Below are positions 4,192-20,341 of a stretch of DNA of 20,341 nucleotides, piece after piece. The first letter of the stretch is position 1. The number at the start of each line of letters is the position of its first letter. The notes under the pieces are model-generated. The model worked only from the letters and a program-made list of their open reading frames with translations, had not been told where the DNA came from and made no database searches. This DNA comes from a virus. The stretch spans positions 1 through 20,341 of the IMG/VR virus record IMGVR_UViG_3300006026_000141; one strand, given 5' to 3'. Both the position numbers and the translations under genes were made by a program.

Positions 4192-5082
4192 GTGTTAGGT
4201 TTATTTCCGTTAGCTTCGGCTCCTTTAGCGGACTTAGGGGCACAAGAAGACGAACCTAACGTTACAGTAAATGTCGTAGGTTCTCAAGCAACAGGGGCTG
4301 TAGGCTCAGTTTCCCTTGAGTTCGATTTTTCCGTTGACGTTACGGGTTTATCTGGCACCAGTGCTGTAGGCACCGTAGAAGCACAAGCAGGCAGTAACAT
4401 AGACGTTACGGGTTTATCTGGCACCAGTGCTGTAGGTTCCGTAGAGTCTATAGGAGTGACGTATGTTGTCGTTTCTGGTTGGGGGTATTCTGGCTGGAAC
4501 ACGGGTGTTTGGGGGCAAGGAGATGTTTTCGAACTATCCACAGGTGTCGGCAATGTATCTGTAGAGTTTGACTTTGCTGTTGACGTTACTGGAGTGTCAG
4601 GCACAGGTAACGTTGGCGCAGTAGAAGCACAAACCGGAGCAATCCTTGACGTTACTGGAGTATCGGGCACAGGTAACGTTGGCGAAGTTACGATCTTTGG
4701 TAATGCCAACATACCTGCAACGGGCCTTGAAGCGGTTGGTAACGTTGGAACTGTTTCAGTTTCTACTCAAATGTTTGTGGATGTTACTGGAGTATCGGGC
4801 ACAGGTAACGTTGGTACAGTAGACATACAGACAGAAGCCTTTGTATTTGTCACAGGTATCAAAGCCAACATCTTTGCGGGACAAGTGTTTATTTGGGATC
4901 AAATAATCATTCCTCCGGATGAAGTGTACACAGGTATTACTCCAAGCCCTGGTAATACGTTTACAGGTATTACTCCATCTGCAACACAAACATATACGAA
5001 TATTGCTCCAAACCCTGGAACAAGCTATACTGAGATCGAAGCTGATCCAGAAACTCTTTGGACAGAGATAAAAGTGGCGTAA
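4192..5082 (+). CDS. tandem-repeat virion protein (22-aa and 11-aa repeats)
   Basis: A 296-aa protein built almost wholly from repeats, starting at GTG. After a short leader (LFPLASAPLADLGAQED), about eight units of 22 residues follow the pattern VTGxSGTGxVGTVxxQ. Between the third and fourth units (about residues 85-120) lies an insert rich in Gly and Trp, GWGYSGWNTGVWGQGDV. The last 55 residues switch to an 11-residue repeat of the form YTGITPSPGNT, ending in WTEIKVA. Such modules are common in marine-phage virion proteins and probably form regular beta structure on the virion surface. The Y/WTxI repeats resemble C-termini of tail fibre proteins that I have seen. It sits just before a fibre gene. 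No enzyme motif is present, and receptor binding or decoration is inference. Confidence 0.65.
   Translation: MLGLFPLASAPLADLGAQEDEPNVTVNVVGSQATGAVGSVSLEFDFSVDVTGLSGTSAVGTVEAQAGSNIDVTGLSGTSAVGSVESIGVTYVVVSGWGYSGWNTGVWGQGDVFELSTGVGNVSVEFDFAVDVTGVSGTGNVGAVEAQTGAILDVTGVSGTGNVGEVTIFGNANIPATGLEAVGNVGTVSVSTQMFVDVTGVSGTGNVGTVDIQTEAFVFVTGIKANIFAGQVFIWDQIIIPPDEVYTGITPSPGNTFTGITPSATQTYTNIAPNPGTSYTEIEADPETLWTEIKVA
4270..4875 (+). repeat. 66-base tandem repeat, about eight units
   Basis: Units start at 4270, 4336, 4402, then 4582, 4648, a diverged unit near 4714, 4780 and a last diverged one near 4846. Unit spacing is exactly 66 bases (22 codons), apart from the 180-base step across the Trp/Gly insert. 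Positions 4336-4370 and 4402-4436 are identical over 35 bases; 4651-4682 and 4783-4814 are identical over 32 bases. The repeats keep the reading frame. Identity above what protein conservation requires suggests recent duplication or gene conversion. Confidence 0.85.
4921..5079 (+). repeat. 33-base (11-aa) C-terminal repeat
   Basis: About four and a half units of 11 codons, with the pattern aromatic-T-x-I-x-P-x-P-G-x-T. The 15 bases from 4930 recur from 4963. Later units drift to YTEIEADPETL and finish WTEIKVA. Confidence 0.75.
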
Positions 5083-5091
5083 GGAACAGTT

Positions 5092-5985
5092 ATGGCAAGT
5101 ACATATACAACAAACGGTGGTATCGAGAAAATAGGTACAGGCGAACAGTCTGGTACATGGGGCGATACAACGAACACAAACTTCGACATTATCGACCGTT
5201 TGACAAACGGTGTAGGTTCTGTTGCGCTTAGTGACGCTGATTCAAATCTAGAAACATCTGATGGGACGCTTTCAGATGGTATGTTCAAAGTGATAGTGTT
5301 TAGCGGCTCACTAACGGATACACGAACAATTACTGTTTTGCCAAACAATGCGCAGAAACTGTATTTTATGAAGAACGACACAGGCCAGAGTTTAACAATT
5401 ACTCAAGGTTCTGGAGGGGATGTTACTCTTTTAAATGGCGGAGCGGCAGCTTTGTTTTGTGATGGTGCAGGTTCTACTGCCGAGGTTGTTGATTTAACGT
5501 CTTTGTTTTTTAGTCAACACGGGGTAACTGCTACGGCGGCAGAGCTTAACTATAACGACATTACAACGCTTGGCACCTCTGAAGCTAGTAAAGTTCTGAC
5601 TGCCGACGCTAACGGTGATGTTACTGTTAGTGAAGAGTTTATAGCAAAGAGTTACAATGAGACCTATTCAGCCGTGTCATCTTCTAGTGGTACTCTGACG
5701 CTTGACTGCGAAACGGCTAATGTTTTCCAAACTACGCTAACAGAAAATGTAACGACTCTTACTTTAAGTAATCCTCCAGCCAGTGGCACAGCATATGCCT
5801 TGACCCTAAAGATTATTCAAGACAGCACCGCACGAACTTTTGCGTGGCCTGCCTCCGTAAACTGGGCAGGTGGTACAGCCGCGACGATATCCACGGCGTC
5901 AGGTGCGGTTGATATATACATCCTATACACAACGGATGGCGGCACAAACTGGTACGGATTTACTGGGGGTAAGGAGTTTAGTTAA
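5092..5985 (+). CDS. tail fibre-type protein
   Basis: A 297-aa protein. The N-terminus GIEKIGTGEQSGTWGDTTN followed by NFDIIDR (residues 9-35) is a signature I recognise from short tail fibre proteins of marine phages. A beta-rich region follows (VIVFSGSLTDTRTITVLPNN, YFMKNDTGQSLTITQGSGG). Residues about 144-178 carry GVTATAAELNYNDITTLGTS and KVLTADANGDV, a segment repeated in many phage fibre proteins. The C-terminal domain (about 195-297) is a beta module with LTLSNPPASG and ending WYGFTGGKEFS. TAAGGA at the previous stop serves as the ribosome binding site. It lies directly upstream of the giant repeat protein and may be the fibre base or an adaptor for it, which is inference. Confidence 0.7.
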   Translation: MASTYTTNGGIEKIGTGEQSGTWGDTTNTNFDIIDRLTNGVGSVALSDADSNLETSDGTLSDGMFKVIVFSGSLTDTRTITVLPNNAQKLYFMKNDTGQSLTITQGSGGDVTLLNGGAAALFCDGAGSTAEVVDLTSLFFSQHGVTATAAELNYNDITTLGTSEASKVLTADANGDVTVSEEFIAKSYNETYSAVSSSSGTLTLDCETANVFQTTLTENVTTLTLSNPPASGTAYALTLKIIQDSTARTFAWPASVNWAGGTAATISTASGAVDIYILYTTDGGTNWYGFTGGKEFS

Positions 5986-8900
5986 TGTCTCTTTCTAAAA
6001 AACTTTTGATGGGATCAGGTGGAACTGGTGCTAACTACGACTTGTCGCAGTTAACTGCGGACTTTGGTACTGGCATCACTAATATGATGAGTCAGAAAGA
6101 TTTTTACGACAATATTCCTGGTTTTGATATTTCGTCAGATACTATTAATACTAGAGGGATGGACTTTAATTCAGACGGAACAAAAGTCTTTTTTATCGTA
6201 CACAACCCTACAGGGTCAGATGATGATTTGTACATATGTAGCTTCGACCTGTCTACAGCTTATGACTTAACGTCACGTAGCAGTTTTGCTTCTCAGTTAA
6301 TAGATGGGTCCGTTGCTAGTTGGGGGTCTGGTTTGCAGTTTAAACCAGATGGCACAAAGTTTTTTGCCTCAGGCCCAGCGGATACAATTTATGAATATAA
6401 TCTTTCAACGGCATTTGATGTAACGACTCTAACTGCTACAAGCAACTCTCACACCTTTGGGGACATCCAAGGATGGTCCTTTAATGACGACGGTACGAAG
6501 TTTTACCACTGGTCTCCTAATGTAACTAACAGTGGGATAGAGCAGTATACTTTAAGCACTGCCTGGGATATTACTTCAACAATTACGCAGGGCACTGACA
6601 TTGGCTTTGGTGTTCAGCCTGTTGGATCATCCGTGTATGCATTAGGGTTTAGTACTGACGGAACCGTTTTATACGTTACTGGTTCTGGTAGGATGACAGC
6701 ATGGAATCTTACTACTGCGTTTGACCCTTCTACCGCTGGGACTAAAGAACAAAATCTTTCGCTGAATATTGGAACCAACTGGGCCGCAGGACGTTTGCCC
6801 ATAGCTTCTGATTCTTCTTCCGTACGAATGTTTATACACAGGACAATAAGTACTGGTCGAAGTGGGATTTGGACTTACAGAGACACTACTCAAGGTCCAG
6901 ATAAGACGAATATAAATAACTTTCAGATAGAAGCAAAATCTAAACTGAAAGTGCCGTATGAAGGTCTTCCCACCGTCGATACTTCAGCTATCTCAACTGG
7001 TGCGAACATCATAACTATGATGTTTAACGATGATGGGACTAAACTAGTTGTAGTCTATGACAATGGAAGCTCAAACGGAGGCGGTAAATTTGTTTCATAT
7101 AACTTGGACACGGCCTATGATTTAAGCTCTATAAGTAATCCGGCGCAAGCCTCTAGTTTTACTACTAGTATTACAGGTTCTGTTGGTACTCGTGCCGCTG
7201 ACTTTGTGGAAAATGGCTCAAAAATACTTGAGTACAATTATGTTACCTTTACTCAAGATACTCCTACTTCATACTTTAGAACAACTAACTTAGCTACGGC
7301 GTACGACATAACCACAGGAAGAAGCACAGGTCCTAGCCTAGATACGGATAAATCACTGGCGTCGGCTATTGGTAGTCGTATTAAAGGATTTGACTTTAAT
7401 TCCGATGGGACAGAAATCACACTACTCAGCAGTAGTATTGATTATGAAAGGGCTTATACTGATTCGGTTGGTCCAACTATTGGAGCGTTACTTGGAGACA
7501 ATGTAGAAGGACTACTTACAACCCATTCTTTAACTACAGCGTATGACATAAGTACCTTAGACGTATCAGGTATAAATTATGCTTACTATGATTACGCAAG
7601 CATAGATCCAGATGCAGATACAGGGGGCGGGTTTGAGTTTGAATCAGATGGTAACGCGTTTCATACGATTATCTCTGAAAATACTACTCAAATTACGCAG
7701 CACATAAGATACCCTGTGCATACATCTTTTGGTATCGACTATAAGCCCACACCAGAAGAGGTTAATTATACCCGCACTGAAAATACTGTTAACTATAGCA
7801 CTGTGTATAGCTATAGATCTATGGCTTTTAATAGTGATGGAACTAAGGCGTATGCCTTAGATGAAATTGAACACATGATCCTCCAGGACAATTTAAGCAC
7901 CGCGTATGATTTTGCTGAGACTGGTGGCCTAATGGCGGGGGCGGGGAACGAAAACTCTAATATTCCTATTACTAATAGAACGCCAGGGCGGATGGCAACC
8001 AGCAAAAACGTGGGTAATTTTACATTTAATGGTGATGGAACCAAACTTAATTGGCACGACACTGCTAATAACAGCGGGTACGCAGGGTTATACGAACACA
8101 CTTTAAGCACCGCGTATGATCTAAGTTCAATGACTAAGACCCCTAATACGACTGTGACAGACGTAGCTTTTTACGTTACGCCAGTAGCAAACACAGGTGT
8201 AACATGGGGAGACAGTGGAAATAAGTTTTATCAGATTGTAGGTATTAACGGCTACACAACTGAAACTACAGATAACACAATATATCAGTGGGACGCGACT
8301 ACTGCATATGATATAGACACGCTTCCGACTACACCAACAAAGTCACATACGTTTGGTACGTTCACCTCTGGTACAAGTACAACAGCGCAAAAAATATACT
8401 TTAAACCTGATGGAACAAAACTTTTTATTTTAGCACAATCTGACAGTAGCAACACCGAGTATGTGTTTGCGTATGATTTAAGCACGGCATGGGATGTTAG
8501 TTCTATTACATCGACGACAACTCCTGATGAAATTAGGACTCTAACAACCACTGAAGATGACTATAATTTTGGTGGGTTGTTCTTTAACAGCACAGGAACA
8601 CAGTTAGTTGTAGCACAACAGTTTTCTCTACATTCGTTTACTCTTGGTACAGCCTGGGATATTGAGGGTACTTTTACCAAAGATCACAACAAGATACCTA
8701 TCTTTCATTTTGCAAATATGAACACTGCGGAAACTCGTGGGTTTGTTGCAAAGCCAGACGGAACAAAGGTGTTTTTTGGAGATCAACTTTATATCGCTTC
8801 CGTAGATTTAGACACGGCCTATGACTTTACTACTATGAATACCCAAAATATAGGCGGCGGCTTTGGGCCGTATACCCTTGTTGAAGAATTTGGTTCGTCT

Positions 8901-9851
8901 TCTTGGCGGGTTGCTGGGGCAATAGTTAAAGACTTCAGGTTTAACTCTGACGGTACAAAAATGTACACGTTAGAGTATCGGAATACTTCTTTAATTGTAT
9001 CCTATCCTCCAGAGAGTACTATTAATTCGTCAGCAAATTGGTACGTGGCAGAATACGCGTTAAGTACTGCTTATGATGTGACAACAGCGTCGTACACAAC
9101 CGCAGCACCGCTAGAGACTTCAACTGGATATGTGGGTGCTGGGACACCTGAATACCCTTATTCTTTTGATATAGGACCTAATGGTGAGTTTGTTTTAGCG
9201 GGACGACGCGGGTTGTTTATTGGGACTATGACAACGGCAGGAGACATATCTACTTTAGGTGACTTAACTTTTGCTACTGTCCAAGGGAGTTCAGATGTTT
9301 GGTCTGATCGAAAATGGTATTGGGGGGACAACGGTACCACTACTATTGATAGAACTGCGGCAGCGGTTCGATTTAGTCCAACAGGAGACGCTCTTTACTT
9401 GCGGTTTAGAAGGACGCAAGATGAGGCGTATATGCTTAAAGTTGAATTAGCCACCGCATATGATTGTAATAGTGCAACATTTGTCCCGTATGATGGAACA
9501 TATGCAACGATAGACAGTGTGTCTGGTGACGAACCTGGATATCTAAACAATCTTAGGTTTCAAGATAACGGAACTAAAATGTTTATGATGGACTCACTAG
9601 TAATTCCCACTTCTGTAAGAAGTGATAGTCAGTTAGGTGGTCATCTTAGAATCCGAAGATTTGATTTAAGCACTGCATATGACGTTAGTACTCTTACTGA
9701 GCTAGACAACGCGGATTTAACTGGAGATTTAAACGCAACAAATATGACATTCCCTGTAAGTAACGCGATGGCTTGGAAGCCTAATGGTTCTCAGGTATTT
9801 TTGTCTACTGGTTTTAATATAATTGCGGGTTACACGTTTGGTGGAAGCTGA
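5985..9851 (+). CDS. giant propeller-repeat tail fibre / receptor-binding candidate
   Basis: A 1288-aa protein made of about 20 repeats of roughly 50-80 residues. Each repeat pairs a strand motif FNSDGTKxF with YxLSTAYDxST. Seventeen repeats are clear. Two (near residues 270-300 and 550-590) are degenerate. The final one is cut after GYTFGGS, while the N-terminus (residues 15-24, ANYDLSQLTA) supplies the missing LSTAYD half. Such DGTK repeats are typical of beta-propeller folds and are seen in marine-phage fibres. No catalytic site, signal peptide or membrane segment is visible. A strong AAGGAG precedes the start, inside the TAATG junction. Position between a fibre gene and a tail assembly chaperone supports a receptor-binding role, by inference. 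The number of separate propellers cannot be read from sequence alone. Confidence 0.75.
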   Translation: MSLSKKLLMGSGGTGANYDLSQLTADFGTGITNMMSQKDFYDNIPGFDISSDTINTRGMDFNSDGTKVFFIVHNPTGSDDDLYICSFDLSTAYDLTSRSSFASQLIDGSVASWGSGLQFKPDGTKFFASGPADTIYEYNLSTAFDVTTLTATSNSHTFGDIQGWSFNDDGTKFYHWSPNVTNSGIEQYTLSTAWDITSTITQGTDIGFGVQPVGSSVYALGFSTDGTVLYVTGSGRMTAWNLTTAFDPSTAGTKEQNLSLNIGTNWAAGRLPIASDSSSVRMFIHRTISTGRSGIWTYRDTTQGPDKTNINNFQIEAKSKLKVPYEGLPTVDTSAISTGANIITMMFNDDGTKLVVVYDNGSSNGGGKFVSYNLDTAYDLSSISNPAQASSFTTSITGSVGTRAADFVENGSKILEYNYVTFTQDTPTSYFRTTNLATAYDITTGRSTGPSLDTDKSLASAIGSRIKGFDFNSDGTEITLLSSSIDYERAYTDSVGPTIGALLGDNVEGLLTTHSLTTAYDISTLDVSGINYAYYDYASIDPDADTGGGFEFESDGNAFHTIISENTTQITQHIRYPVHTSFGIDYKPTPEEVNYTRTENTVNYSTVYSYRSMAFNSDGTKAYALDEIEHMILQDNLSTAYDFAETGGLMAGAGNENSNIPITNRTPGRMATSKNVGNFTFNGDGTKLNWHDTANNSGYAGLYEHTLSTAYDLSSMTKTPNTTVTDVAFYVTPVANTGVTWGDSGNKFYQIVGINGYTTETTDNTIYQWDATTAYDIDTLPTTPTKSHTFGTFTSGTSTTAQKIYFKPDGTKLFILAQSDSSNTEYVFAYDLSTAWDVSSITSTTTPDEIRTLTTTEDDYNFGGLFFNSTGTQLVVAQQFSLHSFTLGTAWDIEGTFTKDHNKIPIFHFANMNTAETRGFVAKPDGTKVFFGDQLYIASVDLDTAYDFTTMNTQNIGGGFGPYTLVEEFGSSSWRVAGAIVKDFRFNSDGTKMYTLEYRNTSLIVSYPPESTINSSANWYVAEYALSTAYDVTTASYTTAAPLETSTGYVGAGTPEYPYSFDIGPNGEFVLAGRRGLFIGTMTTAGDISTLGDLTFATVQGSSDVWSDRKWYWGDNGTTTIDRTAAAVRFSPTGDALYLRFRRTQDEAYMLKVELATAYDCNSATFVPYDGTYATIDSVSGDEPGYLNNLRFQDNGTKMFMMDSLVIPTSVRSDSQLGGHLRIRRFDLSTAYDVSTLTELDNADLTGDLNATNMTFPVSNAMAWKPNGSQVFLSTGFNIIAGYTFGGS
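6027..9848 (+). repeat. propeller-blade repeats within the 1288-aa protein
   Basis: LSTAYD-type motifs lie near 6251, 6405, 6551, 6707, 7103, 7290, 7530, 7893, 8103, 8295, 8478, 8643, 8808, 9060, 9228, 9446 and 9665. Steps are mostly 150-250 bases. The two steps of 395 and 362 bases each hold one degenerate repeat. At DNA level the copies are diverged, though short identities persist, for example the same 18 bases at 7893-7910 and 8103-8120. Confidence 0.8.
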
Positions 9852-10315
9852 TGTATGTTTTGGTTGATGACGACAACAATTTGATAAAGTTTCCTTTTAG
9901 CCCTTCAGAGCTAAAACACTTGCACCCAAATGTTAGTTTTCCTGTGGACATGCCTGACAGGCTGTTGGCAGAATACAATGTCAAGAAGACAAAAACATCT
10001 CCTCGTCCTGCTATTAACGAGGAAACAGAAACATTTAAACGGACGATACAACGTGTGGGGGATGATTGGCATGTAGTCTATAAAGCTACTTTACGTCCTA
10101 AAGATGAAATTATTTCTAACGTAAAAGAAAGAATACAACAGCACTTAGATCGTACCGCTGATTTAGTTCTTTCTTTTCTTGAAATAAACCAACCTGTGCC
10201 TGAGTGGCTGGGGGAGTACAGAAAAGCACTTAGAGCAATCCCTGAACAGGATGAATACCCTTATAAAATAACTTGGCCTGACCAACCTGAAGGAGTGCGT
10301 AATGCCTTTATCTAA
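9851..10315 (+). CDS. tail assembly chaperone-like protein
   Basis: A 154-aa protein. The N-terminal half begins MYVLVDDDNNLIKFPFS, as in fibre-associated chaperones that open with a short beta segment. The C-terminal part (about residues 105-150) has VPEWLGEYRKALRAIPEQ and ITWPDQPEG, which match the phage tail assembly chaperone pattern (Phage_tail_APC type: YRxALRxIPxQ, then a WPxxP end). Such proteins help fold or attach fibre proteins and usually lie directly downstream of the fibre they serve, here the 1288-aa protein. The start overlaps that gene as TGATG. The end overlaps the next gene by 14 bases. The family call is from recalled consensus. Confidence 0.65.
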   Translation: MYVLVDDDNNLIKFPFSPSELKHLHPNVSFPVDMPDRLLAEYNVKKTKTSPRPAINEETETFKRTIQRVGDDWHVVYKATLRPKDEIISNVKERIQQHLDRTADLVLSFLEINQPVPEWLGEYRKALRAIPEQDEYPYKITWPDQPEGVRNAFI

Positions 10316-12197
10316 GTTCGCTTTTCGTCCAGGGATTAATAACGATGTCACCGCCTACAGCAATGAAGGCGGTTGGATTGATGGGGATAAAGTTCGCTTT
10401 AGACTTGGTTTTCCAGAAAAAATGGGTGGTTGGGTTCGACAAACTCCCACATCTTTTTTAGGAGCGTGTCGATCTCTTCATACATGGGCTTCGCTTAATG
10501 GTGACAAAAACATTGGAGTTGGAACATCATCTAAGTTCTATGTAAATCAAAGTAACGCTTTCTATGACATCACACCTATTAGGGCAACAAGTTCCGCAGG
10601 CAGTGTCACCTTTTCAGCTACGGACGGAAGCTCAGAAATTACTGTAAGTCATACGTCTCATGGGGCAGTTTTAGGGGATTTTGTTACGTTTAGTGGTGCA
10701 GCTACTTTAGGCGGTACAATTACCGCAAACGTCTTGAACCAAGAATACTATATAACTGAGCTAGTTGACGAAAATAGTTACAAGATTCAGGCACGGGCTG
10801 CGGATACCTCAATTTCCTCTATAACCGTAGATGGCGTATTAACGCCAAGTTTAGTAACTGCCAATTCTTCTGACACCGGAGACGGTGGAGCCTCTGTTGT
10901 TGGGGAGTATCAGATCAATGTAGGTTTGGATACTGAAGTTGTTGGTACAGGTTGGGGTGCAGGGACCTGGTCTGCGGATGGCTGGGGCGATGCGTCTAGC
11001 GAAGCTGTGGTTTCTTCTGGTTTAAGATTGTGGTCTCAGGACAACTTTGGTGAGGACCTGTTGTTTAACGCGCGTGATGGAAACATATACTATTGGAATA
11101 CATCTCTAGGCACTTCCTCTAGAGCAGTTGCTTTAAGCACCGTCTCAGGAGCGTCAAAGACTCCTACAGTTTCTCGTCAAATTTTAGTTTCAGATAGGGA
11201 TCGTCATATTATCTCTTTTGGTTGTGATCCAGAAGCAACGCCTGGTGTTCAGGATCCGTTGGTTATCCGGTTCTCGTCCCAAGAATCTTTGACGGATTGG
11301 CAGACGCTGCCCACTAACTCCGCTGGAGAGCTACGATTGGGTTCAGGTTCTGAGATCATTGCTGCCGTTGAAACCCGTCAGCAGGTTCTAGTGTTTACGG
11401 ACACCACGCTTTATACCATGCAGTATTTAGGGGATCCTACTTTCTTTGGGATTAACGCTGTCTCTGAAAACATAACTATAGCTAGTTTTAATGCTGCTAT
11501 TGCAGTGGACGACACTGTGTTTTGGATGGGAGAGGGCGATTTTTATGCATTTACAGGTGCTGTCCAGAGACTTCCTTGTACGGTACGTGACCATGTGTTT
11601 AATGACTTTAACAAAAATCAGTACCGTAAAGTTAGTACAGGTGTAAACGCTCAACACTCTGAGATCTGGTGGTTCTACCCATCAGCGTCTAGTGCTACCA
11701 ACGATAAGTATGTGGTGTATAACTATGCAGAAAACGTTTGGTATTATGGCGCATTACCCAGAACAGCTTGGGTTGATCAGGGCGTATACGAGTTTCCGAT
11801 TGCTGCTTCGACGGACAATTATTTGTACTTCCAAGAAAACGGGCTGGATGATGGTAGCTCTAACCCTGCTTCTGCGATAACGTCGTACATTACTTCGGCC
11901 CCTGTAGACATTGGGGATGGGGAAAACTTTGTGCTAGTCAAACGACTTATGCCTGACGTTATCTTTAGAGACTCTACTGAACCGTCTCCTGTCTTAGACA
12001 TTACGACGAGAGTTCGTAATAAATCTGCGGGACCCTTTAACAAAGAGACATCTAGTTCTGTGTCAGATGACACGGAGTTGGTTAATCTAAGGCTACGAGG
12101 GCGGCAAATGTCTGTGGATGTTCGCTCGGATTTGGCGGGTACAACATGGCGATTAGGCACTCTAAGGTATGACATTAGACCGGATGGCAGACGATGA
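10302..12197 (+). CDS. tail nozzle / P22 gp10-like stabilization protein candidate
   Basis: A 631-aa protein. The N-terminus has KFAFRPGIN, AYSNEGGWIDGDKVRFR and PEKMGGWVRQ (residues 5-48), a signature I associate with a large podovirus tail protein annotated as packaged-DNA stabilization or tail nozzle (P22 gp10 / T7 gp12 role). Residues about 100-200 hold a beta-rich insert (SSEITVSHTSHGAVLGDFVT). From about 240 the sequence has propeller-like features (NARDGNIYYW, RDRHIISFGCD, DDTVFWMGEGDFYAF, DKYVVYNYAENVWYYG). A C-terminal beta domain carries the LRGRQMSVDVRSDLAGTTWRLG stretch in two parts. AAGGAG upstream supports the start despite the 14-base overlap. It would close the tail below the adaptors. 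The function is inferred from family and context. Confidence 0.65.
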   Translation: MPLSKFAFRPGINNDVTAYSNEGGWIDGDKVRFRLGFPEKMGGWVRQTPTSFLGACRSLHTWASLNGDKNIGVGTSSKFYVNQSNAFYDITPIRATSSAGSVTFSATDGSSEITVSHTSHGAVLGDFVTFSGAATLGGTITANVLNQEYYITELVDENSYKIQARAADTSISSITVDGVLTPSLVTANSSDTGDGGASVVGEYQINVGLDTEVVGTGWGAGTWSADGWGDASSEAVVSSGLRLWSQDNFGEDLLFNARDGNIYYWNTSLGTSSRAVALSTVSGASKTPTVSRQILVSDRDRHIISFGCDPEATPGVQDPLVIRFSSQESLTDWQTLPTNSAGELRLGSGSEIIAAVETRQQVLVFTDTTLYTMQYLGDPTFFGINAVSENITIASFNAAIAVDDTVFWMGEGDFYAFTGAVQRLPCTVRDHVFNDFNKNQYRKVSTGVNAQHSEIWWFYPSASSATNDKYVVYNYAENVWYYGALPRTAWVDQGVYEFPIAASTDNYLYFQENGLDDGSSNPASAITSYITSAPVDIGDGENFVLVKRLMPDVIFRDSTEPSPVLDITTRVRNKSAGPFNKETSSSVSDDTELVNLRLRGRQMSVDVRSDLAGTTWRLGTLRYDIRPDGRR

Positions 12198-12490
12198 GCA
12201 GGAATCTTGTAAGACCGTTTTTTCCTATCGCTCCTACTTCGTATACTCAAACGTACATGAACGAGATTGTGCGATCTTTTTCTGTTTACCTGCAACAGGT
12301 GCAACAACCAGGGGAAGGTCGGAATACAACCATTGTTTTGACTAAGCTTCAAACGGATGATTTTAACTTAGAAATAGGAACATTGTTTCAACAAGATGGT
12401 TTTGTTAAGATAGCTCAAGGAAACACTCCGCATGTTAGAGGTTTATCTGGCACATCTGCGGTAGGAACGGTTACGGTGACGACGACATGA
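12194..12490 (+). CDS. small virion protein with VGTVTV tail
   Basis: A 98-aa protein. The first 40 residues include PFFPIAPTSYTQTYMNEIVR and a helical SFSVYLQQVQ, a pattern seen in small proteins following the nozzle gene in marine phages. The middle reads QTDDFNLEIGTLFQQDGFVKI. The last 19 residues, from VRGLSG through GTSAVGTVTVTTT, match the 22-aa repeat of the 4192-5082 protein in both protein and DNA. They also match the end of the 725-1027 gene. It starts in an ATGA overlap and ends in another. The element may be a shared docking or decoration segment. Function is unknown. Confidence 0.65.
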   Translation: MSRNLVRPFFPIAPTSYTQTYMNEIVRSFSVYLQQVQQPGEGRNTTIVLTKLQTDDFNLEIGTLFQQDGFVKIAQGNTPHVRGLSGTSAVGTVTVTTT

Positions 12491-18800: not shown

Positions 18801-20022
18801 TGATGAAATGGATGCATACAAACGATCTTTTGCTGCGCCATGGGAAAAAGGTTCTGTTCTTATTCCGATTGGGAAAGAAGACGGCAAGATTCAGTACATC
18901 AATTTCAGTATGTCTAACCCATACGACGTTATCAGCCGCGCAGCTAATCGCTTGTTGAGTGAAACAGATAACGCAATCGCAATGGGCAAAGACCCAGGCC
19001 AAGTAATGACAGACGTTGTTGGTGGAACTCTCAAAGAGTTTCTTGAACCCTTCCTTGCCGAAGGTATGCTGACCGAAGCGATCATTGATACGACATGGCG
19101 CAGTGGACGAACATCTACTGGGGCAGAGATTTGGAATCCAGAAGATAGTGAGGGTGCTAAAGCAGGTAAATTCCTCGCACATATCTTTGATACTATGGTG
19201 CCAAACATTTCGCCCGTTGATTTAAAAGGTGAGCCTGGTCGTTTTGTTCGTGGCACCATAGGAAACTTTGCTCCAGACTTGGTTAGTCCCACAGATAAAC
19301 AAGGTCGTGAACGTGAGGTAGGTAAAGAACTAATGAGAGCCTTTATGGGTGTTACTCCTTTGGAGTTTGATCCAGCAAAAGGTTTGGAGTACGGGGCGTA
19401 CCGTATGGGTCAAGCACAGACCAACGCTAAACGTATCTTTAACGGGCATGTGGATGACTTCAACGTCACACCCAACAGTTTGATGAGCGCATTTACTAGA
19501 GCCAACGACGCTAAACTGCGCGTAGATCGTGAATACTATCAGATGTTTGAGGACCTAAAAACAATGGGCATGAGCAATGCTCAGATCGCACGGATCCTCA
19601 AAAGAAACAACATCGGCGGTGTTGACAGTATTATGCGTGGTAAGTTTGATCCCTTTGATCTTAGTAAAAAGAACTACCAAGACCTTCGAGACACAGGCAA
19701 TCTAAAGAACTTGCCTCGTGGGGAGATCCGTAGGCTTCAAGGAGAACTGCGCGGTACACCGCTAGCACCGGATCAAGGACCACGGACCAAGCCTCCTGCT
19801 CCGACCCCTAGTCGTCAGCCCACGCTACCTCCTGGCTTAACCCCGACGCCTCCCGCAGGGTTAACCACAACACCTCCTGGCTTAACTCCAGAACGCCAGG
19901 GCAGCTTGCCACAGGTTCTACCAACCCAGGCTCGTGCGCCTGGGCCAGTGAATCCAGCTTTGTTGGGGGATAATCCGATTGATGCTGCGCTTAATGCACA
20001 GATTGCGAACCGTCAGGGGTAG
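15895..20022 (+). CDS. large internal core / DNA ejection protein candidate
   Basis: A 1375-aa protein, the last plus-strand gene. Both ends carry proline-rich GLxxTPP repeats (residues 4-36 and about 1300-1335). Gly-rich hydrophobic stretches lie near residues 54-72 (GVVSGGIGIVEGVTGLGASL) and 108-128 (IVTQFVVPGLGAASMAG). The long middle is helical. Residues near 680-710 read KALSQYSKTILSPITQVRNA, and near 901 GNFITFPAEMFRTSFNIFK, both familiar from very large marine-phage internal proteins. A hydrophobic segment at about 940-962 (LLGFLGTTVVVPSAALNMGY) could cross or enter a membrane. Size and position match the T7 gp16 role. I see no lysozyme or transglycosylase motif. Start choice is supported by AAGGAG. 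Its 3' end overlaps a minus-strand gene by 32 bases. Confidence 0.62.
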   Translation: MADLPRGLSATPPEGLSTTPPGLSTTPPPGLSATPPEETGRNRDQWYDDTILGELGEGVVSGGIGIVEGVTGLGASLYDYFADTDKATDVQKFFDDTRDVMGLDPEGFVGKGAEIVTQFVVPGLGAASMAGKLYKGGKTLSQLSKTQKVGLAASELTAAGAADAAVMNNGMTTIGDWVGFNPTETTDLIGLRGSERAAADLANRFKFGVESATLGGVAQAGLMKAGKTLGDSRIGKTSAAAIRDKIDNVGKAANELMYKRAFAEPGKELSKGKALLADVIAFGRYGGYLPDQIATKRLLTDGQVQIQVKEADRILKQFETGVDDFLKKAPEGTGVVDRVSLLNTVEDYLVAPDRGMKAQLLKQLPKQVRNPAIRMRKHIDRLTEDVLNSNFLKENNFVTKSGENLDDVIRQNINTYLRRRYKIFEDANYTPTAQSVKDADNFFRANKKATEKELTQMARKDTTGQITDEFLTTNGLARQTGKDGVEIVVTGSKVTDAAAQKAREGFLNRYSIKRNAKFEGGRMARDRLETGMFVSRENIPKTLRALLGEVKDPREAYLGTIADLAQFSAVDDYFGTIANLASTNKSIGNLFVKGDALTPAQKAGLRERGYVQLGGDGGKSSIVGTVGKEGDELAALAGSKGWGSIENYFVPQAIYDDLTRLVVAEGNLGAQVVRGIFSTFLRGKALSQYSKTILSPITQVRNATTAAAFATANGNIPVFGRGGSMADAAKAVWANISNKGPQAVFDDLADAQRRGVLGTNAELREIQDSLNRGIGLSARESDNALANIVGETVAKGVKKVTKPAEAVYQGSDDFWKYYSYHAEQGKLRHALRDATPEQQIAYLTKNGNDMSPEMASRLRRGQVDQTVLDDLIKDRAAQIVRDTVPNYNKAASELVSFARKLPVGNFITFPAEMFRTSFNIFKQSLDDIASDIPAVQARGRQRLLGFLGTTVVVPSAALNMGYAISGVDRDEMDAYKRSFAAPWEKGSVLIPIGKEDGKIQYINFSMSNPYDVISRAANRLLSETDNAIAMGKDPGQVMTDVVGGTLKEFLEPFLAEGMLTEAIIDTTWRSGRTSTGAEIWNPEDSEGAKAGKFLAHIFDTMVPNISPVDLKGEPGRFVRGTIGNFAPDLVSPTDKQGREREVGKELMRAFMGVTPLEFDPAKGLEYGAYRMGQAQTNAKRIFNGHVDDFNVTPNSLMSAFTRANDAKLRVDREYYQMFEDLKTMGMSNAQIARILKRNNIGGVDSIMRGKFDPFDLSKKNYQDLRDTGNLKNLPRGEIRRLQGELRGTPLAPDQGPRTKPPAPTPSRQPTLPPGLTPTPPAGLTTTPPGLTPERQGSLPQVLPTQARAPGPVNPALLGDNPIDAALNAQIANRQG
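15907..16008 (+). repeat. N-terminal GLxxTPP repeats of the 1375-aa protein
   Basis: Four units of about 7-8 codons (GLSATPPE, GLSTTPP, GLSTTPPP, GLSATPPE). The codons vary between units, so this is an old or selected repeat, not a fresh DNA duplication. Confidence 0.75.
19786..19908 (+). repeat. C-terminal GLTxTPP repeats of the 1375-aa protein
   Basis: Units read PPGLTPTPPA, GLTTTPP and GLTPERQ, following a Pro-rich APTPSRQP stretch. They mirror the N-terminal repeats with Thr in place of Ser. Confidence 0.72.
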
Positions 20023-20233
20023 CACCTGGGTCCACTTCTATCGTTAGTTTGACGCCGTTGCCGCCGAATAACTTAACGAGTTCGTCGCAGTATGCTTCCA
20101 CATCCTCGATGATCTCCATGTCTTCGGTGCTAGTAGCGAGGTTTATAGTCATGCCGATAAGATCCATGAGTGCTTGAACCTGCATAGGATGCATGTCTCT
20201 AAGGCCGACTGATTTGACTTGTTCAGGTTTCAT
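19991..20233 (-). CDS. small acidic phage protein of unknown function
   Basis: An 80-aa protein on the minus strand starting MKPEQVKSVGLRDMHPMQVQ. Two helical segments (ALMDLIGMTINLATSTEDME and IIEDVEAYCDELVKLFG) are followed by a strand, VKLTIEVDP, and a polar tail. I do not recognise the family. The ATG at 20233 is preferred over an in-frame TTG at 20248. GGGGAG lies 7 bases before the ATG, and the ATG overlaps the stop of the upstream minus-strand gene as ATGA. Its 3' end overlaps the convergent 1375-aa gene by 32 bases. Strand switch marks the edge of the late module. Confidence 0.65.
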   Translation of the reverse strand: MKPEQVKSVGLRDMHPMQVQALMDLIGMTINLATSTEDMEIIEDVEAYCDELVKLFGGNGVKLTIEVDPGATPDGSQSVH

Positions 20234-20341
20234 TCGATTTCTCCCCAATTATCTTTGAGTTCATCGTCTACTTTCGAGGGGACTCGCAAGACATCCGACA
20301 ACCCGTTTTCCATTATGTCCTTGATTCGTCGCGCTTGGTCG
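20230..20341 (-). CDS. 3' end of a minus-strand gene (5' partial)
   Basis: On the minus strand one frame is open from the window edge (first full codon at 20340) to a TGA at 20230-20232, giving 36 residues. They begin DQARRIKDIMENGLSDVLRV and end KDNWGEIE. The ATGA overlap with the next gene and the protein-like composition support it as real. It is too short to assign. It could end any larger gene lying to the right. Confidence 0.6.
   Translation of the reverse strand, partial: DQARRIKDIMENGLSDVLRVPSKVDDELKDNWGEIE
20241..20246 (-). promoter_or_regulatory. ribosome binding site deciding the minus-strand start
   Basis: GGGGAG on the minus strand, 7 bases upstream of the ATG at 20233. An alternative TTG start at 20246-20248 would overlap this site, so the ATG is the better choice. 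Confidence 0.6.

Follow-up and report, generated by a model that had tools for sequence, protein, structure and literature searches.

Five-bladed β-propellers are known from a few phage receptor-binding proteins, one per chain. Propellers have been described in the receptor-binding proteins phi11 Gp45, PRD1 P2 and PhiKZ gp131, and in the first of these, from a Staphylococcus phage, a five-bladed propeller forms the platform, the domain's first strand completing its last blade (PMC4901313). The nozzle protein of phage SU10 is a seven-bladed propeller (PMC9509320), and in the TAPE domain of EML1 two propellers stand in tandem, the C-terminal one having a blade assembled from parts distant in sequence (PMC4761370).

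Here we analyzed a 1288-aa protein encoded on a 20.3-kb fragment of a virus record from a marine phage (hereafter the window, i.e., the whole stretch of 20,341 nucleotides), which 3 further virus records of the same collection match at 99.9% over 6–14 kb. The neighbours of its gene form a podovirus-like tail module, with the following features:

60-725: SU10-type adaptor (PF24175)
5092..5985, plus strand: tail fibre gene directly upstream of the propeller gene (PHROG_9017 region)
5985..9851, plus strand: propeller protein gene, an ORF of 1288 aa with ATG start and 20 blades
9851..10315, plus strand: tail-fibre assembly chaperone (Phage_tail_APC) directly downstream (Pfam PF16778; PHROG tail fiber assembly)
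10302-12197: virion structural protein (PHROG 3287), 42% identical to its counterpart in phage DSL-LC04

The chaperone ORF was recognized by PF16778 at 26.9 bits, just above the cut-off of 26.6. A GLSGTSAVGTV-type peptide occurs in three genes of the window, at the ends of 725-1027 and 12194-12490 and within 4192-5082, where it forms a tandem repeat accompanied by a 44-base direct repeat. At the right end of the window, an 85-aa ORF on the minus strand (19991-20248) has the appearance of a genuine gene and may be where the tail module ends.

The repeat unit of the protein is a blade with strands A and B (around xFxxDGTKxY), C (YxYxLS) and D (TAYDxSTxT). A blade model trained on viral proteins other than the window protein gave the latter 329 bits, whereas none of 222 scored shuffles exceeded 9.9 bits, which puts the repeat far beyond chance, and a model made from the window protein itself gave 19 hits. 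In total, 20 blade cores were placed (blades 5, 9, 17, and 20 are degenerate and their positions were set by eye), and strands A, B, and C, often also D, were predicted in each blade. An earlier note on this DNA had claimed about 20 blades, a count borne out by the placed cores. The turns lie at:

Blades 1-10: residues 65, 123, 170, 226, 277, 351, 411, 475, 556, 619
Blades 11-20: residues 685, 745, 810, 871, 926, 990, 1067, 1134, 1196, 1268

The N-terminus carries a lone outer strand D (ANYDLSQLT, residues 16-24, in the register of STAYDLSTLT), while the C-terminus stops after strand C and leaves the last blade without D. The description of the termini as two halves of one blade, also made in the earlier note, thus holds as a statement about sequence, with D at the start and A-B-C at the end.

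Relatives were drawn from phage records, viral contigs and genomes. In the final set, the blade total was a multiple of five in 154 of the 172 nonredundant complete viral proteins (41 with 5 blades, 80 with 10, 28 with 15, 3 with 20, and 2 with 25); a slightly smaller set of such relatives gave 149/167, and a first sample with stricter clustering 52/58 (p ~5e-30 against one in five). Most exceptions were one blade off, as is expected when degenerate blades are missed. In a separate collection of cellular homologues, five blades were present in 45 of 56 complete ORFs and ten in 3. Two-ring relatives (ten blades) align unit by unit with blades 1-10 of the window protein and three-ring relatives (fifteen blades) with its blades 6-20, and in many relatives long spacers lie between the rings. 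Totals in multiples of five indicate that the building unit is a five-bladed propeller, and the 20 blades of the window protein, itself recognized by the blade model and with a total divisible by five, would then very probably form four rings of five. In one further ORF (L305, 1453-8505, 2351 aa), 44 blades were detected in one chain, which probably has 45 and hence nine rings.

Link length was taken as the distance separating the aromatic residue in TAYD and the DG turn of the blade that follows. In the window protein they amounted to 47 residues at the start, 46 after blade 5 (with the anchor set by eye), and 44 after each of blades 10 and 15, compared with 26–37 residues for the internal links (one exception of 48; median 35; Mann-Whitney p 0.004). 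These lengths reveal a five-blade period in the protein itself, with the extra length falling after D, on the way into the following ring; at blades 10 and 15, the C-D hairpins are normal. A general rule by which each ring crossing has a long link became less likely in view of 15- and 20-blade relatives lacking such links (e.g., L068 and similar twenty-blade proteins, without long links at ring boundaries). The parts of the protein were delimited as follows:

5985..6032, plus strand: N-terminal leader MSLSKKLLMGSGGTGA (residues 1-16), set by alignment with L040 and L069, related 10-blade phage proteins whose MATKKKLLQAAAG it resembles
6033..6065, plus strand: first lone D strand NYDLSQLTADF (residues 17-27), set by register, 47 residues before the first DG
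6081..6140, plus strand: possible second D strand NMMSQKDFYDNIPGFDISSD (about residues 33-52), set by position only
6141..6896, plus strand: ring 1, blades 1-5 (about residues 53-304), set by blade HMM and link lengths
6897..7022, plus strand: link between ring 1 and ring 2 without TAYD motif (about residues 305-346; boundaries approximate)
7023..7964, plus strand: ring 2, blades 6-10 (about residues 347-660)
7965..8864, plus strand: ring 3, blades 11-15 (about residues 661-960)
8865..9848, plus strand: ring 4, blades 16-20 (about residues 961-1288), blade 20 without strand D
9816..9848, plus strand: last strand C, NIIAGYTFGGS (residues 1278-1288)

The split termini alone do not decide whether the outer ends of the chain close on each other, since this split is also seen in a single five-blade ring and a string of self-closing five-blade rings would give identical termini. 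The architecture of the relatives and the covariation between their strands bear on this question. In class I (contiguous ten-blade proteins), links measure 33 residues at the start and at the junction vs. 29–30 inside, and the C5-D5 hairpin is normal in length (22 residues) and sequence. In class II, the junction has no D strand (spacing of 39 instead of 51), two D strands lie at the N-terminus (45 and 30 residues ahead of the first DG), and only the chain's final blade remains without a D. The covariation test used a pair table learned from other proteins, with internal strands as positive controls. The position pair (C-5, D+8) is conspicuous in internal blades, and internal D strands were assigned to their own C with z 3.0–4.9, own C ranking first for 7 of 8 strands. 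In two-ring proteins without spacer, the first D strand (D0) covaries with C10 (z 3.7 pooled over 48 sequences; z 3.4, p 0.0007 with permutation inside classes), and the signal, which rests on one position pair and these 48 sequences, peaks at the expected register. When near relatives were thinned to ~27 sequences, it fell in step with the internal controls (z 2.1 vs. 2.9) and so holds under thinning, while one stricter selection of 19 sequences gave no signal. The expected covariation of D5 with C5 in class I and of the second N-terminal strand with C5 in class II was not seen, and the test on fifteen-blade (three-ring) proteins, with nine sequences, had no power. In a 25-blade relative (L022), there is no first D strand and one junction holds an extra D (residues about 750-818), as if the closing strand had moved into the junction.

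The N-terminus of the window protein is class II-like (leader KKLL, first D 47 residues before DG, no TAYD after blade 5), and its end, ...GYTFGGS, compares with ...AYTLGPQS in L040. Judging from these relatives, the same end-to-end closure rather likely holds in the window protein, and residues 17-27 are the proposed closing strand of ring 4, their pairing being suggested by the covariation in relatives. By the C-D pair rule, Asp26 and Thr1284 would face each other, which is at most suggestive, as Asp is the commonest partner for Thr at this pair in internal blades. The second D strand might tentatively be given the role of closing ring 1, as in class II relatives. In the mechanism that we propose, four five-bladed β-propellers, each blade with strands A-B-C-D, would sit on one chain, successive rings being joined by long links running from strand D into the next ring. 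Residues 17-27 would not close ring 1 and would instead supply the missing outer strand to the last blade, in ring 4, so that both chain ends would be fixed in one blade and the four rings would become a closed string.

That the outer ends of a multi-propeller chain meet had been put forward in the earlier note as one of two arrangements. This part is supported in relatives, by the 48 two-ring proteins, where D0 goes with the last strand and not with the end of ring 1, and by class II, which starts with two D strands and lacks one where its rings join; for the window protein itself it may hold, and AlphaFold2 models of that protein, based on alignments of relatives, were poor (mean pLDDT of 61 for residues 1-660 and 51 for residues 300-1288, and below 50 for residues 1-53). 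Foldseek matches of these low-confidence models were β-propellers and inform on the fold class only (TM-scores to solved structures of about 0.2–0.35; best partial viral match a 231-residue fragment, TM 0.75 by its own length), and a sequence search of solved structures with the window protein gave no match.

Alternatively, each five-blade ring could close on itself, the first strand closing ring 1, the D after blade 5 closing ring 2, and so on. Local closure of this kind has been established in phage phi11, for the five-bladed propeller of Gp45 (PMC4901313), and agrees with the isolated rings, whose D0 covaries with their own C5 (z 3.7, 29 single rings), with the spaced rings, whose D0 covaries with their own fifth blade (z 3.8, 73 spaced rings), and with three contiguous relatives (L208, L226, L365) in which C5 is followed by a linker and then by a copy of the first D. 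In the 48 contiguous two-ring proteins, however, D0-C5 covariation is absent (z 0.3), the C-D hairpins at the junction are normal and the long links come after D, as they also do in the window protein, and class II has a junction devoid of D. We regard local closure as doubtful for the window protein, while still granting it appreciable weight; in view of the link lengths and the covariation, we abandoned a first reading of our own, in which the split was only a by-product of such closure. The other arrangement of the earlier note, in which the twenty blades together make up a single, very large closed ring, would account for the split termini and for the contiguous spacing in some relatives, but five-blade proteins exist in isolation and by covariation close on themselves, blade totals go by fives, long spacers interrupt many relatives, and in the window protein long links recur every five blades, all of which makes a single ring extremely improbable. 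The reading that we prefer remains four rings whose last blade is completed by the start of the chain.

As for function, 27 other viral loci likewise have a chaperone homologue after the propeller gene, and three relatives (L053, L066, L077) combine the propellers in one protein with the C-terminal tail-fibre domain of PHROG 9017, which in the window is carried by the gene just upstream (5092-5985). With the chaperone next door and these fusions, the propeller protein is most likely the host-binding tip of a tail fibre; gene order and fusions make its role as a tail adhesin highly plausible, and the exposed faces and loops of the rings would bind the host surface. Depolymerases are common among phage tail proteins and some propellers are glycosidases, so the propellers could instead be an enzyme, e.g., a host-surface depolymerase, rather than a plain adhesin. 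With the window protein, though, Pfam, PHROGs, and NCBIfam gave no enzyme family that reached the cut-off, and its variable, degenerate blades appear to give no pointer to a conserved active site; we consider an enzymatic role unlikely. Neither Pfam, PHROGs, nor NCBIfam held a fitting model for the window repeat, and hits of relatives such as SGL or Lactonase were set aside as coming from motifs common to propellers, in many cases without any individual stretch passing. Taken as a whole, the account of a four-ring tail adhesin in which the start of the chain closes ring 4 has, in our view, slightly better than even prospects of being correct.

The module occurs in whole rings per chain across many marine phages, which suggests that phages alter the reach and the number of binding faces by adding rings. 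We see an even chance that there is a widespread, hitherto undescribed phage tail adhesin family built only of five-bladed propellers, with spacerless chains locked end to end and the window protein as its four-ring member; jointly with such locking, the proposition that ring number in this family runs over one, two, three, four, and five or more is just as evenly balanced. If the chain ends do meet in the last ring, folding cannot finish until the whole chain has been made, which could explain a dedicated chaperone gene downstream. In addition, genomes of SAR11 and related bacteria contain genes for secreted proteins of ~700 aa in which one five-blade ring is followed by an autotransporter β-domain (PF03797, E 1e-23 to 1e-32; Pelagibacter loci L102, L098, L150, L099, L151, and others). 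The passenger of these autotransporters is the same module, so phage and possible host share a surface fold. In an uncultured 484-kb phage (L012, LR756508), TnpB-like transposon-associated proteins, identified by eye, are encoded on either side of the five-blade propeller gene. Most proteins of the family are annotated as hypothetical, and the repeat is poorly covered by library models.

Among known systems, phi11 Gp45 (PF21311, Phage_RBD_prop) shares with the window protein the five-bladed propeller and is a receptor-binding protein, but it has one propeller per chain together with stem and tower domains, whereas the window protein has four in one chain and probably differs also in a closure that runs across rings. 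PF21311 gave no hit for the window protein, and the relative L040 reached 19.5 bits with it, below the cut-off of 23.7. The TAPE domain of EML1 is similar in having more than one propeller per chain and a blade made from distant parts (in the window protein, a proposed one), and differs in being eukaryotic, with WD-type blades (thirteen canonical plus one atypical), two rings, and an unrelated function. The SU10 nozzle is likewise a propeller in the tail of a related podovirus type; its place, however, is matched in the window by the virion structural protein at 10302-12197 and not by the propeller gene, whose product has five-bladed rings and no match to the PHROG of that protein. The same blade repeat is present in the Roseobacter phages CRP-2, CRP-9, and CRP-13, with three five-blade rings, and in the Lentibacter phage ICBM2, with one ring encoded next to a tail assembly chaperone gene; in contrast to the window protein, the rings of these proteins, annotated only as hypothetical and about 23–32% identical to it, are separated by other domains or single. 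In the literature searched, which was an incomplete selection, we found no account of chains in which five-bladed rings number up to five or more, of counting by fives, or of phage proteins with the last ring closed by the start of the chain. Phage receptor-binding proteins with a five-bladed propeller are thus known, while the tandem arrangement of such rings and their proposed closure from end to end are probably new.
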